From contig JALCBR010000022.1 of NCBI GenBank assembly GCA_028066245.1, forward strand, positions 1 through 52,789: a DNA stretch of 52,789 bases, read 5' to 3'. The notes under the pieces were generated by a model, which saw only the letters and a program-made list of their open reading frames with translations, did not search any database and was not told the origin of the DNA. How positions within the stretch are numbered: the first letter of the stretch is position 1; every line of letters begins with the position of its first letter. This document shows, one piece after another, positions 16,895 through 26,788 of this stretch. Both the position numbers and the translations under genes were made by a program. Origin of the DNA: Pirellulales bacterium. GTDB lineage: Bacteria; Planctomycetota; Planctomycetia; Pirellulales; S012-138.

Positions 16895-17125
16895 TGGGTT
16901 GTAAGAGTCGTTTGCCAGACCGACCTGTCCGTGAGAAAGTTGGCTGTCAATGACGTTGTGCGGTGACAGAGCGGATTATCGCGCAAATCTCGTTCAGCAG
17001 AAACAGCGGTTTAGCAGGCCATTCTCCGCGATCTCACCCTGCGGTATCCTGGCGTGTTAATGCAGGAGCACGGGGGCCGTGCGGTTGCCCATTTCGAAAT
17101 TCCACATCCCGCCAGGAAGCCTGTA

Positions 17126-17461
17126 ATGTCTGACTACATTCAGATCATGACGACGACAGATGACCGGTCGGTGGCTGATTCGATTGCGGAATCACTGGTG
17201 AAGCGGCGGTTAGCCGCCTGCGTTCAGGTGATCGGCCCGGTCCAAAGCACATTTCAGTGGGAGGGCAAGGTTCAAACGGCTTCCGAGTATCACTGCATTG
17301 CCAAGAGTCGAATCGATCTGTTCGCGCTGGCCGAGGTCGCCATTCGTGAGGCTCACAACTATGACGTGCCAGAGATTCTCTCGATTAAGATCAATGAAGG
17401 CTCCGTGGATTACCTCAAATGGATGGACGGCGTTCTCATGGACCCCTCGATCGAGTCATAG
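17126..17461 (+). CDS. cutA: CutA1-family divalent-ion tolerance protein
   Basis: CutA1 is a small trimeric PII-like protein linked to metal tolerance; its exact role is unsettled. The 111-residue sequence has the core features: ADSIAESLVKRRLAACVQVIG near the start, YHCIAKSR, and YDVPEILSI followed by YLKWM at the end. The open frame begins upstream at 17054, but the ATG at 17126 has AGGA 8 bases before it and gives the standard length, so I use it. It is followed after 77 bases by coaX. Confidence 0.9.
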   Translation: MSDYIQIMTTTDDRSVADSIAESLVKRRLAACVQVIGPVQSTFQWEGKVQTASEYHCIAKSRIDLFALAEVAIREAHNYDVPEILSIKINEGSVDYLKWMDGVLMDPSIES

Positions 17462-17538: not shown

Positions 17539-18369
17539 ATGATTCAATCCGTAAGACACCTTATTGCTGCTGATATCGGCAACTCGCGGATGAAGTTTGC
17601 GAGGTTTGAACTGCGCTCCAGCCCAAATGACCTCAACGGACAACTCCCAGATCCTCTGGACGTACTCAGCCTAACCCCCAACTCACTCGGCGGAATGGCC
17701 GCATGGATGAAAGATCCGGTTTGGCGAAACGCAGAGATCGCGATCGGCAGTGTGCAGCGGACAAGGACGGCTGATGCGATCGCTCTCCTGCGACAGTGCG
17801 ATTTCGCGGGAGATATCCGGCTGTTAACTGCGAGCGACTTGCCGTTAGAAATCGACTTGCCATTTCCGGACAGAGTTGGCATTGATCGGCTGCTGGCGGC
17901 CGTTGCTTCAAACCAATTGCGAGAGTCTCACGTGCCGGCGGCAATTGTTGACCTGGGAACAGCGATCACCGTTGATCTCGTTTCCGCACAAGGCGTTTAC
18001 CTGGGCGGCGCCATCGCACCGGGAGTGGGACTTGCCGCTGGAGCCTTGCATCAGGCGACTGACTTGCTGCCGGAGTTCGATCTGGCCGCCCTTGATGAGA
18101 CCATTGATCCCATTGGTCGTGACACGGTTTCCGCGATGAAGTCAGGGTTGTTTCTGGGTGCAGTGGGAACCATTCGCGAGTTGGTGGCGCGGCAACTGGA
18201 AAGCCAAACAGTCAGTGACGTGCGAGGCTCAGGTGACGCCGCTGCTCGGATCTTTGTTTGTGGGGGATTTGGCGAGCGCGTAGCGCACTTGCTCTCTCCG
18301 CAGGCTGCCTACATACCACACTTGATACCGCAGGGGATTGCCGTGGCCATGCGAGGGCTGGCGCAATGA
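17539..18369 (+). CDS. coaX: Type III pantothenate kinase
   Basis: CoaX phosphorylates pantothenate in the first step of coenzyme A synthesis. The 276-residue protein has the ASKHA-fold signatures: ADIGNSRMKFA at the N-terminus (phosphate loop), DRVGIDRLLA, IVDLGTAITVDLVS and GGAIAPGVGLAAGALHQ. The start ATG has AGG 7 bases upstream. The stop overlaps the start of the following mnmE-like gene (ATGA), so the two are almost certainly co-translated. A later CoA-pathway gene, coaC, is also in this window at 30956. Confidence 0.93.
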   Translation: MIQSVRHLIAADIGNSRMKFARFELRSSPNDLNGQLPDPLDVLSLTPNSLGGMAAWMKDPVWRNAEIAIGSVQRTRTADAIALLRQCDFAGDIRLLTASDLPLEIDLPFPDRVGIDRLLAAVASNQLRESHVPAAIVDLGTAITVDLVSAQGVYLGGAIAPGVGLAAGALHQATDLLPEFDLAALDETIDPIGRDTVSAMKSGLFLGAVGTIRELVARQLESQTVSDVRGSGDAAARIFVCGGFGERVAHLLSPQAAYIPHLIPQGIAVAMRGLAQ

Positions 18370-19553
18370 GTGGCCGCACGGAATTCTGCCTGCTCACTCC
18401 ACCCGGCCGCGGCGCGGTCGCGGTCATTGGCGTGCACGGTCCACGCGCGGGAGAAATCGCCCGCTCGTTTTTTCGCCCAACCGTTGAACACACGAATGCG
18501 AAAGGGGAAATCCCTCTCCGAAGGATTCTCTATGGGCGTTGGAAAGACTCGCAAGGCGAGGAGCTGGTTATCTGCCGCGTAGGGGACGCGTGTGTTGAAA
18601 TCAACTGTCACGGCGGCGTTGCTGCGCCGGCAGTGATCTGCCGGGACCTGCGGTCTGCCGGTTGCGTAGAGGTGACGCATGCGGAATGGATTGCCCGCGA
18701 GTCCGGAAACGACCTGATTGCTACGGAAGTCTGGCAGGCACTCGCGCTCGCGCAGACGGAAAAGTCCGCGGCTATTCTACTTGCCCAGAGGTCAGGAGTG
18801 TTGGCTCGGGAGATTGCCAGCATCGTGGGTTTGGTAAGCGGTGGTCAAACTCGCAATGCTCAAACACGGCTGGATGTGCTTAGGCGACGCGCGCAACTCG
18901 GCCAGCACCTCACTGAACCTTGGAAAATTGTCTTGGTGGGAGAGCCTAATGTCGGCAAAAGCAGCCTGATCAATTGTCTGCTCGGTTTTGAAAGAGCGAT
19001 CGTGCACCCACAACCGGGGACGACCCGCGATGTCGTGACCTCGCAAGCGGCATTTCATGGTTGGCTTGTCGAGCTTTCCGATACCGCTGGACAACGTACA
19101 TCCGACGATGCGTTGGAGTCGACAGGCATGCAGCGCGGCCGCGCTGCCATGCAGAATGCAGACCTGATCATACATGTCCGTGATGCGAGGGAGTACCTGC
19201 CGGCAGGTATTCCGACTGACGACATCCTGCATGTGTCGCCCGGACAAGAAGTTCTCTTGATTGCCAACAAGTGCGATCTTGCATCAAATGCCGTTCTTCC
19301 CACAGACGTGCTGCCCACCAGCGCCAAGAGCGGCGTAGGCATTTCTCAACTGATGAGCGTTTGCATTGAGCGACTGATCCCTGATCCGCCTGGCGCACAC
19401 GATGCGGTTCCATTCACGCGGCGGCAGTTTGAGCTACTTGAGCAGGCGAAGCAGCAGCTTAAGGAGGATCGGGCAGATGCAGCCGTGCTAAGCTTGGCGC
19501 AAGTAGCGCATAAACGGCTTCCAGAATTGCCATCTGGCGCGGCAGGCTGGTAA
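18366..19553 (+). CDS. MnmE/TrmE-like GTPase, divergent and shortened
   Basis: MnmE with MnmG modifies the wobble uridine of certain tRNAs. This 395-residue protein (E. coli MnmE has 454) has a TrmE-type N-terminal domain (LLTPPGRGAVAVIGVHG, EINCHGG), a helical part, and a GTPase domain with GEPNVGKS (about 191-198), GTTRDV, DTAGQ (about 239) and NKCD (about 300). The family normally ends in Cys-x-Gly-Lys, whose Cys matters for tRNA modification. Here the protein stops at GAAGW, before that region, and the FTGEDV block of the N-domain is also missing. Either a diverged MnmE paralogue with a different task or one using other residues. The frame opens at 18258, but the ATG at 18366, overlapping the coaX stop, is clearly right. 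Confidence 0.87.
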   Translation: MSGRTEFCLLTPPGRGAVAVIGVHGPRAGEIARSFFRPTVEHTNAKGEIPLRRILYGRWKDSQGEELVICRVGDACVEINCHGGVAAPAVICRDLRSAGCVEVTHAEWIARESGNDLIATEVWQALALAQTEKSAAILLAQRSGVLAREIASIVGLVSGGQTRNAQTRLDVLRRRAQLGQHLTEPWKIVLVGEPNVGKSSLINCLLGFERAIVHPQPGTTRDVVTSQAAFHGWLVELSDTAGQRTSDDALESTGMQRGRAAMQNADLIIHVRDAREYLPAGIPTDDILHVSPGQEVLLIANKCDLASNAVLPTDVLPTSAKSGVGISQLMSVCIERLIPDPPGAHDAVPFTRRQFELLEQAKQQLKEDRADAAVLSLAQVAHKRLPELPSGAAGW

Positions 19554-19570: not shown

Positions 19571-22500
19571 TCATCGCTTGCGTGTTACGCGCCGGCGAGA
19601 ATCCGCTTTGAGCGTGAAAGGCGGGGGCGGACCGGTGACGTCTCGGTGAGTTCCATCGCGATTGTGTCGCTGATCGAGATTCGAACCGTCAATGTGACCT
19701 GCATCCCGAATGGTACGATCGCCGGTGAGGCGATTGATCGCTTCTCTCAAAGATCGCTCCAAACGTAGGCGGTCGTCCTGATCAAAACGGAAGCTGTGTT
19801 CCATTCCCGGCCGGAGGAAATACAAAGAGACGCTTTCCGGTTCAACACCCAGAATGTTCCGCACAGCCTCTGCGTAGACGAACATTTGTAACTCATAGGA
19901 TGCTGCGGAACGCGGGACCGTCGCGGCAGTCACGTTGTTGGTCTTGTAATCCAGCACGTGCCACGCGCCATCCGTATCTTGGTAGAGTAAATCGATCACT
20001 CCTCGCAGACACGGCACGGCTGAGCCAGCTTGCCCAGCGATTGCGCCTGGAACATGCAACAGGAAGTCGATTTCTCGCTCAAGAGTTTGGGTGGCAGCCA
20101 GCCGCTTGGCGAGCGGAGACTGGAGCAGATTGCCAATCATTTCCGTCGCATCACGTCGCAATTCTTCTGTCAGTGTTTCTTGCTTTGCTGCTAGCGATGT
20201 CGTCAAGGTGTCAATGGCCGCCGGATCGGAGAAATCGATTCGCTCGAGCACTTCATGGACAAACGTGCCCAAACTCAGCGCCGCATCCCGATCTGTTGTT
20301 GCTTTGGAAGCACTGTGCTCATCCACAATGCCAGCGTGTTCGCGTGAATCTTCGCGCAAGGTGCCGCTGAGCCGTGAAAATGAAAACTCACGCCGCGCTG
20401 ACGTATCAGCCGGAACGGGTGCAATTGTATTTGCAGTTACTCCGCCAGCGTGTGGAATGCTCTGGCGAACGTCGGCGACAACTTTGTTGATGGAGACGCG
20501 GCGGGACCTGGATGAGGTTTCTGTGTCCTCTTCAGGAGCAAAAACATGAACTTGTGGAGCGCTCCAATCCTCCGGGAGCGAGCCACGGAATTGCCCACTG
20601 CGCAGGTCAAACCGTTCGGACAGCAAACGCGTCCAAGGACCATGCAACTTGTCAAAACCGCCCAGGCTGCTGGAAAGCACGAGGTGATCGGCGGCGCGAG
20701 TTGTCGCAACATAAAACAGCCGTGTTGTTTCGGCGCGTTCTTCCTGATCTTCCTCACCGCGAATCATAGCTAGCCCGGTGGCCGTTTTGTTTTCTTCATC
20801 TCGGTGTTGCCGCACCAGCGGTCCAAGTCTTGGATGGAACAGTGCCCTGGGCGAATACGTGACTTCGCGTCGGTCGATATCTGGAACGAAGACGATGGGA
20901 AATTCCAACCCCTTGGCTTGATGGATTGTCATCAACCGCACCACGCCGGCTGTCTCCGGATGGATAGCGGCCAAGGCCTCGCGCGGTTTACTGGCAACAA
21001 ACTCCGCCAAACGTGAGATAAACTCGTCCAGCGCGAAACCGTCCGATGATTGAAACGACCTGGCCTGGTTGACCAGCTTGCGAATGTTGGCCAGCTTACG
21101 GTCTCCCAGGAACTCCACCAACAGTGTGGCGTCATATCCCGTGCGGCGGAGAACTTCATCTAACAGTGTGGAAATCGTTACGCGGTCTTTCATCGCCCGC
21201 AATTCGGTCAACGTCCTTGCGGCGAAGAACACTTGGCGGCGCTGCTGTTCATCAAGCTCTGGCGGCGGAGCGACATCACCAAAGATGGCCGCGCGAAATC
21301 CTTCCGGCTGCCGGAAAAGCCAATAGAACGTTTCGTCCGCAAGTGAAAAAATCGGACTACGGAGCGCGCCGATCGCCGCGACTTCATCATCTGGATGTGC
21401 CAATGTCCTTAAGACATTCAGAACATCGTAGATCTCCTGCTGTGCGTAAAACGCGTGTCCGCCCACGAGGTAGTATTTGATGCCGGCGGCGCGCAAGGCT
21501 TCTTCATAGAACTGCACGTCCGAAAGCGCGCGAAACAGGAGTGCGATGTCTTCCTCGCGCGCACGGCGTGCCTCCACAACACCGCGCTTTTCGGCAGATC
21601 GATCCACGACAATCCGTTCTTCTCCGTCCAGCATCTCGCGAATGCGCTGGGCGATTAATCGTGCTTCTGCTCGCCGAGCTTCATTTGCAGAGACGTCATC
21701 CTCTTGTTGGACTGCCCAAATGAATTCGGTATTCGGTCCTGGCGTGTGTTGTTGTCGATGCGGCTCCAGCGGCTCGTACTCGGGCGTAAATGGTTCGTGA
21801 AAAGTCGCGTTGACAAAGTCCAGCACGCCCGGTTGGCTGCGAAAGCTCGTCGTCAACGAGAGCCGTCCTGCTGGGGGTAACTCATCCAGCAGATCACGAA
21901 ACACGCGCGGGTCTGCGCCACGGAAGCGATAAATGGATTGCTTGTAGTCCCCCACCACAAACACGCGACCGGCAAGGAAGTTGCCGTCGCAGAGTGTTTT
22001 GACCAACTCGATCTGCAACGGGTCCGTATCCTGCAATTCATCGACCAACAGCAGCTTGAGGCTCGCGGCCGTTCTCTTACGTAAAGACGCGTGTTTGGAG
22101 TCTCTCAGCAAATCGCGAGTCAGAATTAGCAGATCGTCAAAATCGAGCGACGCCAGTTCGCGCTTACGGCGCGTATATTCTTCGATGATCGGCGTCGTCA
22201 CGCGCAGCAATCGCAGACCGTTCTCGGCCGCGTTTCGGGCCGCCTGCCGATCAAACTCCGCTCGCTTGCGTAGATCACTGGCTTTATCCCTTAACCTCTT
22301 CAGCGTATCGCGGACGCTCGCGTAGACATCAGGTGTGGTCCAAGCTTTTGCGCCTCCGCCTCCTTGAACACGGGCGGCTTGAATCAATTCATCCAATGCC
22401 GTGGTCAAGTCGTCCGACTGAGCGAGCGTCGGCAAGACCGCCAGCACGGTGGTGCGAAACTCTTCCATCTTCCGATTGGTTGAACGATGGCGAGAGAGGA

Positions 22501-23170
22501 GTTCGATGACCTCCCGGCTCAACTCGCTTTCCGTCAATTCTTGTAACTGCCGAGGAAGATATTCCGCTTGAAAGTACGCTTGCCAGCGATCGAGCAGATC
22601 ATCCGCGGTCGCAGCTTGCCACGTGTCCAGATCAAGGTCCGCCCGCTTCTCCAAGAGAGCCCGGATCATGCCGGTCACGTCGCGCAACGCAAAAGAAATA
22701 ATCAATTGGATGGCGTCTTCATTGCGATCTGCCAGTTGCCGACGGAGTTCGTCGTCGATCACCGTCGAGAGCAACGATTCCGCCTGAGCCTGATCGAGCG
22801 TGGCGAAATTGGGATCCAGGCCCGATTCCACGGCGTTTGCGCGAAGGAAGGAACCGCAAAAGGCATGGATCGTGCTGATTCGGGCGGATTCCAATTCGCG
22901 CGAGTGTTGCAACCATCGCTGGCGATCATCCGTGGTTTTCGCGCTATGTAAGTAGTCGTGAATTCGCTCGCGAATGCGGTCGCGCATCTCTCGGGCGGCG
23001 CGCTCTGTGAACGTGATGGCGGCCAGTTCTTGCAGGCTGCCCCCCTCTTCTAAGTGTGCGAGCAAGCGTTGCGTCAATACGAACGTCTTTCCGCAGCCAG
23101 CCCCGGACGAGAGTCCGATGGAGACATCGCGCGTGGTGATGGCTTGGTGTTGTTCGGAGGTCAGTTTCAT
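19571..23170 (-). CDS. addA: AddA helicase-nuclease subunit (RecBCD-type double-strand break repair)
   Basis: AddAB unwinds and trims double-strand DNA ends for RecA loading. AddA (1199 residues) is the UvrD-type helicase with a RecB-like nuclease. Seen: LTSEQHQAI Q-motif, Walker A SSGAGCGKT (21-29), DEYxD-type box DELQDTDPLQ, VVGDYKQSIYRFRGADP, LMTIHQAKGLEFPIVFV, YVATTRAADHLVLSS, and the C-terminal nuclease block GVIDLLYQDT ... LDYKTN (about 1073). All catalytic motifs are present. The frame extends to 23242, but the ATG at 23170 overlaps the addB stop (ATGA), making translational coupling likely. It converges with the mnmE-like gene, 17 bases apart. Confidence 0.95.
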   Translation of the reverse strand: MKLTSEQHQAITTRDVSIGLSSGAGCGKTFVLTQRLLAHLEEGGSLQELAAITFTERAAREMRDRIRERIHDYLHSAKTTDDRQRWLQHSRELESARISTIHAFCGSFLRANAVESGLDPNFATLDQAQAESLLSTVIDDELRRQLADRNEDAIQLIISFALRDVTGMIRALLEKRADLDLDTWQAATADDLLDRWQAYFQAEYLPRQLQELTESELSREVIELLSRHRSTNRKMEEFRTTVLAVLPTLAQSDDLTTALDELIQAARVQGGGGAKAWTTPDVYASVRDTLKRLRDKASDLRKRAEFDRQAARNAAENGLRLLRVTTPIIEEYTRRKRELASLDFDDLLILTRDLLRDSKHASLRKRTAASLKLLLVDELQDTDPLQIELVKTLCDGNFLAGRVFVVGDYKQSIYRFRGADPRVFRDLLDELPPAGRLSLTTSFRSQPGVLDFVNATFHEPFTPEYEPLEPHRQQHTPGPNTEFIWAVQQEDDVSANEARRAEARLIAQRIREMLDGEERIVVDRSAEKRGVVEARRAREEDIALLFRALSDVQFYEEALRAAGIKYYLVGGHAFYAQQEIYDVLNVLRTLAHPDDEVAAIGALRSPIFSLADETFYWLFRQPEGFRAAIFGDVAPPPELDEQQRRQVFFAARTLTELRAMKDRVTISTLLDEVLRRTGYDATLLVEFLGDRKLANIRKLVNQARSFQSSDGFALDEFISRLAEFVASKPREALAAIHPETAGVVRLMTIHQAKGLEFPIVFVPDIDRREVTYSPRALFHPRLGPLVRQHRDEENKTATGLAMIRGEEDQEERAETTRLFYVATTRAADHLVLSSSLGGFDKLHGPWTRLLSERFDLRSGQFRGSLPEDWSAPQVHVFAPEEDTETSSRSRRVSINKVVADVRQSIPHAGGVTANTIAPVPADTSARREFSFSRLSGTLREDSREHAGIVDEHSASKATTDRDAALSLGTFVHEVLERIDFSDPAAIDTLTTSLAAKQETLTEELRRDATEMIGNLLQSPLAKRLAATQTLEREIDFLLHVPGAIAGQAGSAVPCLRGVIDLLYQDTDGAWHVLDYKTNNVTAATVPRSAASYELQMFVYAEAVRNILGVEPESVSLYFLRPGMEHSFRFDQDDRLRLERSLREAINRLTGDRTIRDAGHIDGSNLDQRHNRDGTHRDVTGPPPPFTLKADSRRRVTRKR

Positions 23171-26100
23171 TTGGCGGGAGGAGCCCACTCTTTTTGCAAG
23201 GAGCGAATGTGGCCGACGCGGCACACGGTGGCGAATTCGCAATACGATGTGCAGCCGTCATCAGCACTGGCGACGGGGAACTGCCCGCGTTGCATTGCTC
23301 GCACCATACCGAAGACCTGATCCAGCAGCAGTGGACGACGCTGCTCCCACTCGCTGCTGGGCATAAGTTGTCCGGTTTGTTTGTCGACTTCGCTGAATCG
23401 CCGCCAGTTGTTGGCGCCATCCACGGCCAGGAACCAAAACGCGCTCACCCAGGGGATGGCGTCCTGCCCCCGGAGCAGCAATTGCTGCGCAGCCAACGTG
23501 TAGAGTTCCAACTGCAATCGCCGCGAACGGAGGTCCTGGCGCTCACGGAAGCCAGGCGCTCGACGACCACTTTTGAAATCGATCACGCTGAAGATGTCCT
23601 GTTCACCATGCCGGCCGACATCAATGCGGTCGATGCGTCCGCGCAACCGCAACATTTCTCCGTTGTGGTCTAATGGAAACGGCTTAGTTGTGCTCAACGA
23701 GTCTCCGTCGGCGTCCGGCAAACCGAAGGCGACTTCAAAGTGAGCGGGACGTAGCGGCGCGGTAAGCCCTTTTCGCTGTGCGTCGTAGCTCTTGTGTTGT
23801 TCGCGATAATCTTCCAGCCAGGAAACCATCAGGCGGCGGTCAATCTCTCGCAAAGCTCCCCGGAGCCCATCGGCAGTTGGGTTCTCATCCAACACCTGCT
23901 GGATGTTCACTTCGGCCAGGCGATCATATTCCTCAGGTGAGATCTCCGCCGGAGAAGTTGGCCCACCGTGCTCTCGATTGATGCTCCGTTGCAAGCGGTA
24001 GAGCACATCGTGCACCAGGCGGCCGCGCGAGAGGTAATCAATTTCTAGCCGCAGATCAACAACCTCTTTCACTCGCAACACGCGATCCAGGAAAAAGTGA
24101 TAGGGGCAGCGTGCGTAAGACTCTAAATCTGTGGCAGACCAGGTTCGCTGGTCGCCGAATTCTCGTCCGCAGTTCTCCAGCGCTTGCGGCCCTTTCAGCA
24201 TTCCTTCCCAGGGGCCGAATGAGCGCTTTTGTCCGCGATTCGCGACGACTTCCAGTCCGGTCAGCAAGTTGTTCGCGCGACTTTTTTCCCCGTCGGCTGC
24301 CCAGGCAACAAGATGCTTGGGCTTGCGAGCCAGTGCAGAATCAACGGCAAGAAGCCGGAATTCATCTTCGCAGCACGGTGGGTCTTCCGGCACCGGACTC
24401 AAACTTTCCGGACGGGTCAGCTTGAGGTTGCCATCGCCGAATGCCCTTTGGATCTCCAAGACAAACGGACTGGGCAACAATGGTTCCGCCCACTCATCGA
24501 AGGCCGGAAAACTCAGCCAAAGGCCGCGCGTTGCCCGAGTGATAACTTCGTAGAACAGCAAGAGCTCTGCAGAGTAGTGTTGGTCTTTGTTGGCCAGCGG
24601 CAAGCCAGCTTCGCGCAGTTGGCGATTCTCAGCTTCATTCAACAGGGCGTCGCTGCGCTCGATTGCGGGGAACGCGCGTTCGGTCAAACCGGCGAAGAAG
24701 ACATAAGCGGCGTCCAGCGACCGAACGCTTTTTGCCGAAAGCACACGAACTCGCCCGATCTCGTCATGGCTCTCGCTCAAACGCGTCATTCGGCCAAAGT
24801 CCGTCAACAACCGTCGAAAGCCTGCCAAGTCCATCTGGCGCTGGTTGTCGTTTCTTTCTGTGTCTCGACCGTCGGCAGATGACAATCCGCGATCCAAACT
24901 GGTGAACGAGTCCACCAACATCTGCCAGGCTTGCGCATCCCACCGATTGAGCTGACTTTCGGCGTCGTTTGCAAAGGCCGTTTCCAGCCCGAGCTGCTCG
25001 ACAAGTCCCGCGATGGCCTGCATCCACTCAGCAGCGCTGGCGGACTTGGGTAGTTTGCTGGTTACAGCGTCAAGTGCTTGCAGGACTTCGACCGCTTTTC
25101 GGCAGCTTGCAACGTCGTTGGAGCCGAGCTCGTCCCAGCCTGTCCGTTCGGCGGGCGGTTGTTTTGTCGGTGTCTTTACCGTTGTTTCCAGGCCACTTGA
25201 GTCCGCCAATCCACCAGTCCGCCGGGCGTCCCGCCGTTCCAGCCAGCCCAAATAACCGGTGGCCGACTTGAGCAGTTCCCGTCGGCCAAAGGGAACCTGC
25301 AACGCACGGACCAACTTGAGTGCGGCAATCGGATCGTTGGCCTCCATTCCCGCCGGGCAGAAATAGTTGCTGGTTAGAATGGCCAGCAATCGGCGATGCG
25401 GCCAATCCTCGGCCACCAGCGCGAGCATGTGCAACAACGCGCGGAAGAAGCCAGACTCCGCGACGCGAGGACCAGATTCCATCGCATGGGGAATGCCATA
25501 GCGATCGAATGTCTCGCGGATCAAGACCGCATGTTCGTCGACAGACCTGAATGTGACGAGAATATCCTGTGGTTTGACAGGTGTCCCCACGAAATGTGAG
25601 TCGCCACGTGTCAGGAGTTGCTTGATCGTGCGGGCGACTTCCTCGATCTCGGCAACTTCTCCTGCGGCCTCCAACAACTGAATGCGTGCGGCGGGCGCCT
25701 GGAGTGATTGCTCGGGCGGCCCGAACAGGTTGGATTCGAGATGGTCCATTCCTCGCCAGTTTTTTGTCGTGCGACGTGAGATGACCTCAACACGCAGCGC
25801 CTCGCCAAAGTCTTGCGAAAGTTTCGCCAGCGTTGTTGAGGGCTTGGCGAACAAGTCACCGCGTGCGGAGTTTTCCTCGCCCGTCAGCGTGATAATCAAA
25901 CGGGGAGAACCGTCATCGATCCCCGGGGCGGTCTTTTTCACGGCGAGATCGCGCAGGATCTCATGCTGTGTGGACGTGAAGTCTGTGAAGCCATCAGCGA
26001 CGATCAGCTGCAACCGATCAAATGGCGCTCGTTTGTTATCGCGAATGAGCGTTCGCGCGGTCCAGAATTGTCCTTGCGCATCGTAGAGCCCGCAGGCGTT

Positions 26101-26637
26101 GAGTTCTTGCTGATATCGCTCATAGAGCTTGTGGATTTCCAGGTCTTTCTCGCGGATTTTGCGAGCGCGGCAGGCGGCGATGAGTTGCTCCGGCCAGATT
26201 TCCAGTCGCTTGATTTCACTGATGAAACTGGAGAGCATTTCCACAAAGCCGGATGTCTGCGAAATTTCGCCAAAGATCGGCAGCTCGCCGTGGGCATGCA
26301 GTTGATCGATAATCCGCCGCAGCAGGACACGTTTGGCGAAGAGCGAGATCGGCCGGATCTCTTCCGCCGCTTGGGTGACGATCGATGCAACGAATCGTTC
26401 GAACGTCATCACGTTTGGGCGAAAGAAACCGCCGCTTTCACCATCCAATAGTCTCAGCCGAACTGCTTGGGCGCTGCGGGATGTGGGAGAGAGCCATAGG
26501 CATGCACCCAGAGGCAATTCCCTCAAGGCACGGCGGTATTCGGCCAAGGCACGGTGCGTTTTGCCGCTGCGCGCCGGACCGAGGATCACCGCTTGTGCGG
26601 TCGCGCCCTGGCTTCCGTGAAAGAGAGTCACTGGCAT
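23167..26637 (-). CDS. addB: AddB helicase-nuclease subunit
   Basis: The 1156-residue partner of AddA. The N-terminus has a Walker A loop LGPARSGKTHRA (about 18-29). The C-terminal nuclease shows LRGRIDRIDVG and VIDFKSGRRAP (about 1022). The iron-sulphur cluster is formed by Cys in LESYARCPYHFF (about 843) and the later CTSYCEFATVC (about 1128-1138), the usual AddB arrangement. The frame starts at 26703, but the ATG at 26637 immediately precedes the conserved start and is preferred; no good Shine-Dalgarno sequence was seen. addB is first in the addB-addA operon, divergent from the rhodanese gene. Confidence 0.92.
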   Translation of the reverse strand: MPVTLFHGSQGATAQAVILGPARSGKTHRALAEYRRALRELPLGACLWLSPTSRSAQAVRLRLLDGESGGFFRPNVMTFERFVASIVTQAAEEIRPISLFAKRVLLRRIIDQLHAHGELPIFGEISQTSGFVEMLSSFISEIKRLEIWPEQLIAACRARKIREKDLEIHKLYERYQQELNACGLYDAQGQFWTARTLIRDNKRAPFDRLQLIVADGFTDFTSTQHEILRDLAVKKTAPGIDDGSPRLIITLTGEENSARGDLFAKPSTTLAKLSQDFGEALRVEVISRRTTKNWRGMDHLESNLFGPPEQSLQAPAARIQLLEAAGEVAEIEEVARTIKQLLTRGDSHFVGTPVKPQDILVTFRSVDEHAVLIRETFDRYGIPHAMESGPRVAESGFFRALLHMLALVAEDWPHRRLLAILTSNYFCPAGMEANDPIAALKLVRALQVPFGRRELLKSATGYLGWLERRDARRTGGLADSSGLETTVKTPTKQPPAERTGWDELGSNDVASCRKAVEVLQALDAVTSKLPKSASAAEWMQAIAGLVEQLGLETAFANDAESQLNRWDAQAWQMLVDSFTSLDRGLSSADGRDTERNDNQRQMDLAGFRRLLTDFGRMTRLSESHDEIGRVRVLSAKSVRSLDAAYVFFAGLTERAFPAIERSDALLNEAENRQLREAGLPLANKDQHYSAELLLFYEVITRATRGLWLSFPAFDEWAEPLLPSPFVLEIQRAFGDGNLKLTRPESLSPVPEDPPCCEDEFRLLAVDSALARKPKHLVAWAADGEKSRANNLLTGLEVVANRGQKRSFGPWEGMLKGPQALENCGREFGDQRTWSATDLESYARCPYHFFLDRVLRVKEVVDLRLEIDYLSRGRLVHDVLYRLQRSINREHGGPTSPAEISPEEYDRLAEVNIQQVLDENPTADGLRGALREIDRRLMVSWLEDYREQHKSYDAQRKGLTAPLRPAHFEVAFGLPDADGDSLSTTKPFPLDHNGEMLRLRGRIDRIDVGRHGEQDIFSVIDFKSGRRAPGFRERQDLRSRRLQLELYTLAAQQLLLRGQDAIPWVSAFWFLAVDGANNWRRFSEVDKQTGQLMPSSEWEQRRPLLLDQVFGMVRAMQRGQFPVASADDGCTSYCEFATVCRVGHIRSLQKEWAPPAK

Positions 26638-26788
26638 CGCCCAAATTCGAGATGACGGGCAGCCACTAATGCCCCCGCCGTGAGGATCCGTCCATTTTAC
26701 CACTCCATTTTCGTCAGAGCGGGCGTTGATACAATAGTTTTCGCGATTTGCTATCTACCGCAGCCGAAACGAACAGGCGATATCCAAA

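Follow-up and report, generated by a model that had tools for sequence, protein, structure and literature searches.

A shortened MnmE-like GTPase (paralogue B) encoded in the window, the whole 52,789-nucleotide stretch of Pirellulales DNA that was analysed, is very probably one subunit of a heterodimeric MnmE whose other subunit is a full-length MnmE (paralogue C) encoded elsewhere in the same genome. MnmE (TrmE, ThdF; GTPBP3 in humans) is a homodimeric K+-dependent tRNA-modification GTPase. B is like MnmE in its domain order, G-domain motifs, Glu282 and trans His84, but differs in lacking most of the cis folate residues, the MnmG-docking loop, the swivel helix and FCxGK. The planctomycete full-length C retains the cis folate residues, the docking loop and FCxGK of the MnmE family but, unlike ordinary MnmE, has no His84 and usually neither Arg275 nor Gly285. 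As judged by alignment, the defects of B and C in folate-pocket residues are complementary. The putative role of the pair in tRNA modification is drawn from their relationship to MnmE.

A sequence-only reading of this locus had described an MnmE-like protein with intact GTPase motifs that ends at GAAGW, lacks the C-terminal Cys-x-Gly-Lys and the FTGEDV block, and overlaps coaX by ATGA. All of these features were confirmed on the 395-aa ORF (Table 1). The G domain contains GEPNVGKS, PGTTRD, DTAGQR and NKCD, together with the equivalents of N226 and E282, while FCxGK (Cys451, Lys454) is absent and the FTGEDV position reads RVGDACV. Beyond what had been noted earlier, B was also found to lack the EAxxDF segment and the PGEF folate block, and to keep an E-x-x-CHGG motif (containing His82) directly after the lost FTGEDV block. 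Profile searches gave 32.8 bits for Pfam TrmE_N (PF10396; barely above the cut-off of 29.8), a sub-threshold match to MnmE_helical, and scores below the cut-offs of both curated MnmE equivalog models (NF003661, 150.1 versus 380; TIGR00450, 141.1 versus 252.6). Considered as a stand-alone MnmE, B possesses the N-terminal TrmE_N-type domain and a K-loop G domain with N226, TTRD, DTAG and Glu282, and is without the cis folate residues (R23, F73, I129 and I133), PGEF, FCxGK and the docking loop E171–G187.

Table 1. Paralogue B, its motifs and the adjacent coaX gene in the window; the cis/trans assignment and the role of E282 follow excerpts of PMC12397908 and PMC3695501, respectively
Feature	Position	Strand	Remark
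coaX, type III pantothenate kinase	17539..18369	+	5' of B, ATGA overlap
MnmE-like paralogue B	18366..19553	+	395 aa; TrmE_N-type domain, shortened helical domain, G domain; without FCxGK
Gly-Arg-Gly-Ala loop, B residues 14–17	18405..18416	+	Ala17 at the E. coli G18 position, a trans folate-pocket residue
His82 of CHGG	18609..18611	+	counterpart of H84 in E. coli MnmE, the folate-pocket His that acts in trans
G1/P-loop GEPNVGKS	18939..18962	+	motif
GTTRD, switch I/K-loop	19017..19031	+	motif
DTAG to Glu251	19080..19118	+	Glu251 equivalent to catalytic E282 of E. coli MnmE
G4 NKCD	19266..19277	+	motif

The start codon of B (ATG, 18366) overlaps the coaX stop (ATGA, 18366–18369), and the coaX ORF scored 103.1 bits against the type III pantothenate kinase model TIGR00671 (cut-off 58.2). 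A CutA1-family gene is located just 5' of coaX (window 17054–17461, +). On the 3' side of B, two large ORFs (window 19571–26703, −) contain UvrD-helicase and PD-(D/E)XK nuclease domains, as in an AddAB-type pair, and ADDB_N was detected in one of them. The search for a second mnmE and for mnmG proposed by the sequence-only reading was productive. The same genome (G000) encodes a full-length C of 481 aa ending in FCIGK on contig C36 (L001:1447-2892) and one MnmG on contig C59. This C also scores below both NCBIfam MnmE equivalog cut-offs (289 versus 380 for NF003661, and 228.8 versus 252.6). Insertions after DTAG are frequent in C proteins.

To the extent described in the available excerpts of PMC12397908, the C-terminal Lys in a Thermotoga maritima structure with 5-formyl-THF is ringed by F73, R23, I129 and I133 of its own chain (E. 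coli numbering), and G18 and H84 come from the adjacent chain; on this assignment the folate-pocket residues comprise two in trans (G18 and H84) and six in cis. With E. coli MnmE numbering, residues singled out in published work were scored in an alignment that combined 82 B proteins with 94 full-length planctomycete proteins and 74 ordinary MnmE from bacteria; two full-length proteins (L176 and L177) were set apart, which left 92 C. H84 was present in 74 of 74 ordinary MnmE, 82 of 82 B and none of the 92 C. Among all ORFs read, this His was kept in 119 of 119 B (from 110 genomes) and in 4 of 109 C, the latter representing two genomes, G082 and G107, each read twice (L176, L177, L274 and L275). 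Where both proteins of a genome were read, B had the His and C did not in all 62 cases. The G18 position was small (Ala or Gly) in all 82 aligned B and was Ala in 83, Gly in 33 and a gap in 3 of the 119 B ORFs; in C, only Ala reached 26 %. Cis residues followed the opposite distribution. R23 occurred in 97 % of ordinary MnmE, 91 % of C and 21 % of B, and C451 in 100, 100 and 0 %, respectively. K454 was invariant in ordinary MnmE and C (100 % each) and missing from most B, and the aromatic residue at 73 and positions 129 and 133 were kept in C and gone from most B.

Residues for MnmG docking were similarly distributed. MnmG docks on one MnmE subunit via the loop E171–G187, the loop 405–425 and the swivel helix, and a D175 mutation impairs modification, according to the excerpts of PMC12397908. 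E171, D175 and F176 were found in 100 % of C; in B, E171 was deleted in 100 % and D175 and F176 in 98 %, and the swivel helix with Cys451/Lys454 was absent. The G-domain residues were distributed the other way, with E282 in 100, 20 and 98 % of ordinary MnmE, C and B, R275 in 93, 11 and 87 %, and G285 in 100, 5 and 84 %. Glu or Asp nevertheless occupied position 282 in 45–50 % of C (Glu in 34 and Asp in 21 of 109 in the HMM alignment), and the B protein had neither in 3 of the 62 pairs. In the part of PMC3695501 that was available, E282A and G285A gave no tRNA modification and E282D was fully active. As C often carries Glu or Asp and E282D retains full activity, the sorting of Glu282 between B and C appears from the alignment to be a tendency and not a rule. 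A simple count of conserved columns gave no complementarity beyond chance (9 lost in C, 28 in B and 3 in both, of 68; P=0.45), so the case for complementarity rests on which residues were lost. A further difference concerns a conserved Gly that immediately precedes the G domain (G216 in E. coli) and is probably the N-hinge Gly of PMC2749940 as far as its excerpts describe it. This residue is Pro in 85 % of B and is kept as Gly in only about 30 % of C, and its loss suggests that G-domain swivelling may be changed.

These distributions could also arise if B were a regulatory or inhibitory paralogue that tunes MnmE by heterodimerisation, with C homodimers remaining active and offsetting the lost His by a His at position 82 or in some other way. 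A His two residues earlier, at position 82, was indeed found in 75 of 92 C, and C occurs without a detected B in 4 of the 57 genomes of the order. However, 16 of 92 C have no His anywhere between positions 79 and 88, and the trans His is present in every B read, even where most of the remaining protein has drifted, although a mere inhibitor would have no need for it. A purely regulatory B is therefore considered unlikely.

The occurrence of B was examined in a phylum sample of 294 genomes (apparently Planctomycetota, judging by the named hits L094, L095 and L112; the species set partly repeated relatives). Both C and MnmG were detected in 220 genomes, C only in 10, MnmG only in 16 and neither in 48, and a clear full-length B was found in at least 142, at least 3, at least 11 and 1 of these, respectively. 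Taken together, genomes with C, MnmG or both carried a full-length B in at least 156 of 246 cases, and genomes without either in 1 of 48 (Fisher P=5e-17), the B counts being lower bounds among the matches listed, as a diverged B is easily missed; the 48 genomes with neither were searched with a more sensitive profile. The sole exception, G227 (77 % complete), contains a C fragment, encoded on contig C392 by an open frame of 173 aa, and the Pfam search for C had overlooked at least two genomes (G103 and G122) that were recovered later. B occurs together with C and MnmG, with exceptions in draft genomes. Many of the 48 genomes in which no full-length MnmE and no MnmG passed the thresholds belong to whole families of this kind (f34, f40, f47, f78 and f87); the 48 may be devoid of the cmnm5U34 pathway or rely on a different one.

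The MnmE of G082 and G107, which accounts for the His-containing full-length ORFs, keeps both His84 and Glu282, and no separate full-length B match was found in either genome. From their sequences, these proteins look like unsplit MnmE. They fell outside the C clade in quick trees, but placement inside it was allowed by an AU test (P=0.576), and a horizontal re-acquisition of ordinary MnmE is not claimed.

The location of B next to coaX is widespread. A coaX gene was found directly upstream in 22 of 30 fetched B loci of the order. When the wider phylum sample was included, coaX preceded B in the same orientation at 70 of 119 loci, mostly within about 130 bases. This arrangement, and the resemblance of the G domain to Der and Era as well, would be compatible with a B that has taken on a new function, in ribosome assembly, CoA metabolism or on another RNA, and has ceased to cooperate with either MnmE or MnmG. 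The coaX neighbourhood is old synteny and no evidence for a function in CoA metabolism. A new function of this kind is very unlikely given that the only full-length B among the 48 genomes without C and MnmG is accompanied by a C fragment, and that B retains the trans folate-pocket residues while the matching residue has been lost from C. The sequence-only reading had proposed a lineage-specific derivative with altered chemistry or a different target. Its first part holds, in that B is a lineage-specific MnmE derivative that would be incapable of MnmE chemistry alone; altered chemistry or a different target is not supported. The retained residues, the reciprocal loss of His in C and the near-absence of full-length B without MnmE/MnmG point instead to one and the same enzyme divided between two subunits.

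Within the order, homologues of B (32–47 % identity) were detected in 53 of 57 genomes and C above the Pfam cut-off in 52 of 57. Four genomes had no B (G002, G029, G039 and G047), five had B and no C (G012, G014, G032, G046 and G052; all with MnmG), and none lacked both; all of these incomplete cases are drafts, with G002, G047 and G012 rated 97–99 % complete. B formed one clade both in a 77-row quick tree (support 99) and in a FastTree of 213 rows. Families that at first seemed to be without B (e.g. f23, f75, f76, f83, f60 and f43) were found by a profile of diverse B to have a diverged copy that keeps the His as HGG, HAG, HGN or HGS, and the His was also kept in diverged B of 301–465 aa. A scan of named genomes retained at least 80 loci, and among the matches listed for 15 named genomes outside the phylum, none had B beside an ordinary MnmE. 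Less reduced forms were also observed. In family f62 (L243-L246 and L262), B is longer (437–503 aa as read) and FTGED before CHGG is kept in four of five proteins. A 463-aa B-like frame in L330 (G325:C138) and L112 keeps FTGHDTVEINIHGG and part of the RxDLxQxEA block, has no terminal Cys and is possibly an early stage of degeneration.

The AlphaFold2 model of B had a mean pLDDT of 90.1 and a pTM of 0.84, and its best PDB matches were MnmE structures (9hiq, 9hip chain A, 3geh and 1xzq), the fold match spanning residues 1–388. The model fitted the peripheral chain 9hip_A (TMq 0.75) better than the MnmG-docked chain 9hip_B (0.43). For C, the predicted structure was poor, with a pTM of 0.46, and was left out of the argument. 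Despite its missing C-terminus, B can be dismissed as a sequencing or assembly artefact or a decaying mnmE pseudogene, since it recurs in 53 of 57 genomes of the order with strongly constrained motifs and a confident model; the 3' frameshift and the full-length relatives that the sequence-only reading had named as grounds against its proposal are ruled out by the same relatives, 30 of 30 fetched homologues from the order being without CxGK.

The E. coli MnmE homodimer becomes asymmetric on MnmG binding, with one docking and one peripheral subunit. In the split enzyme favoured here, this asymmetry would be fixed in two genes. B and C would pair via their N-terminal domains and form one folate site per heterodimer, to which C would contribute Lys454/Cys451 and the cis residues and B the trans His. 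C alone would dock on MnmG and pass its one-carbon unit on to the flavin. The G domain of B would pair with that of C, GTP would be hydrolysed mainly by B, and the expected product would be the usual cmnm5-type modification of wobble U34. It is likely that this arrangement extends across the phylum (apparently Planctomycetota) as an obligate two-gene heterodimer with a single two-chain folate site and hard-wired asymmetry, in which the C-type subunit serves methylene transfer and MnmG docking and the B-type subunit supplies the trans His and the GTPase drive, the His being in several lineages the most constant N-terminal feature left in a drifted B.

Heterodimeric enzymes derived from homodimers include QTRT1/QTRT2, ADAT2/ADAT3 and Trm6/Trm61, and paired G domains are found in SRP/FtsY. 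As is proposed for B and C, one paralogue in these heterodimers catalyses and the other is a supporting half. To our knowledge, neither MnmE nor a folate site built by two subunits is involved in any of these examples, and no proposal of a heterodimeric or split MnmE was found in the open-licence literature searched. Tuwongella immobilis has two MnmE paralogues, which are probably the B/C pair. According to excerpts of PMC8567305, two of three replicates contained both of them in the SDS-soluble fraction S3, and MnmG was exclusively in this fraction. Many cytoplasmic proteins were also in S3, so that the co-detection indicates expression more than complex formation. The excerpts of that paper note the paralogues only, and neither a residue analysis nor a heterodimer proposal was found in them.

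The E. coli enzyme is a homodimer whose two sites are hard to change separately, which keeps the division of labour of the two MnmE halves with MnmG an open question of mechanism. A natural heterodimer, if confirmed, would make it possible to mutate one side at a time, be it at either site, in either G domain or at the trans His. No mutant of this conserved His (H84) was found in the literature searched; the heterodimer would supply a strong evolutionary argument for its function, and the annotation of two genes per genome would be corrected across a phylum.
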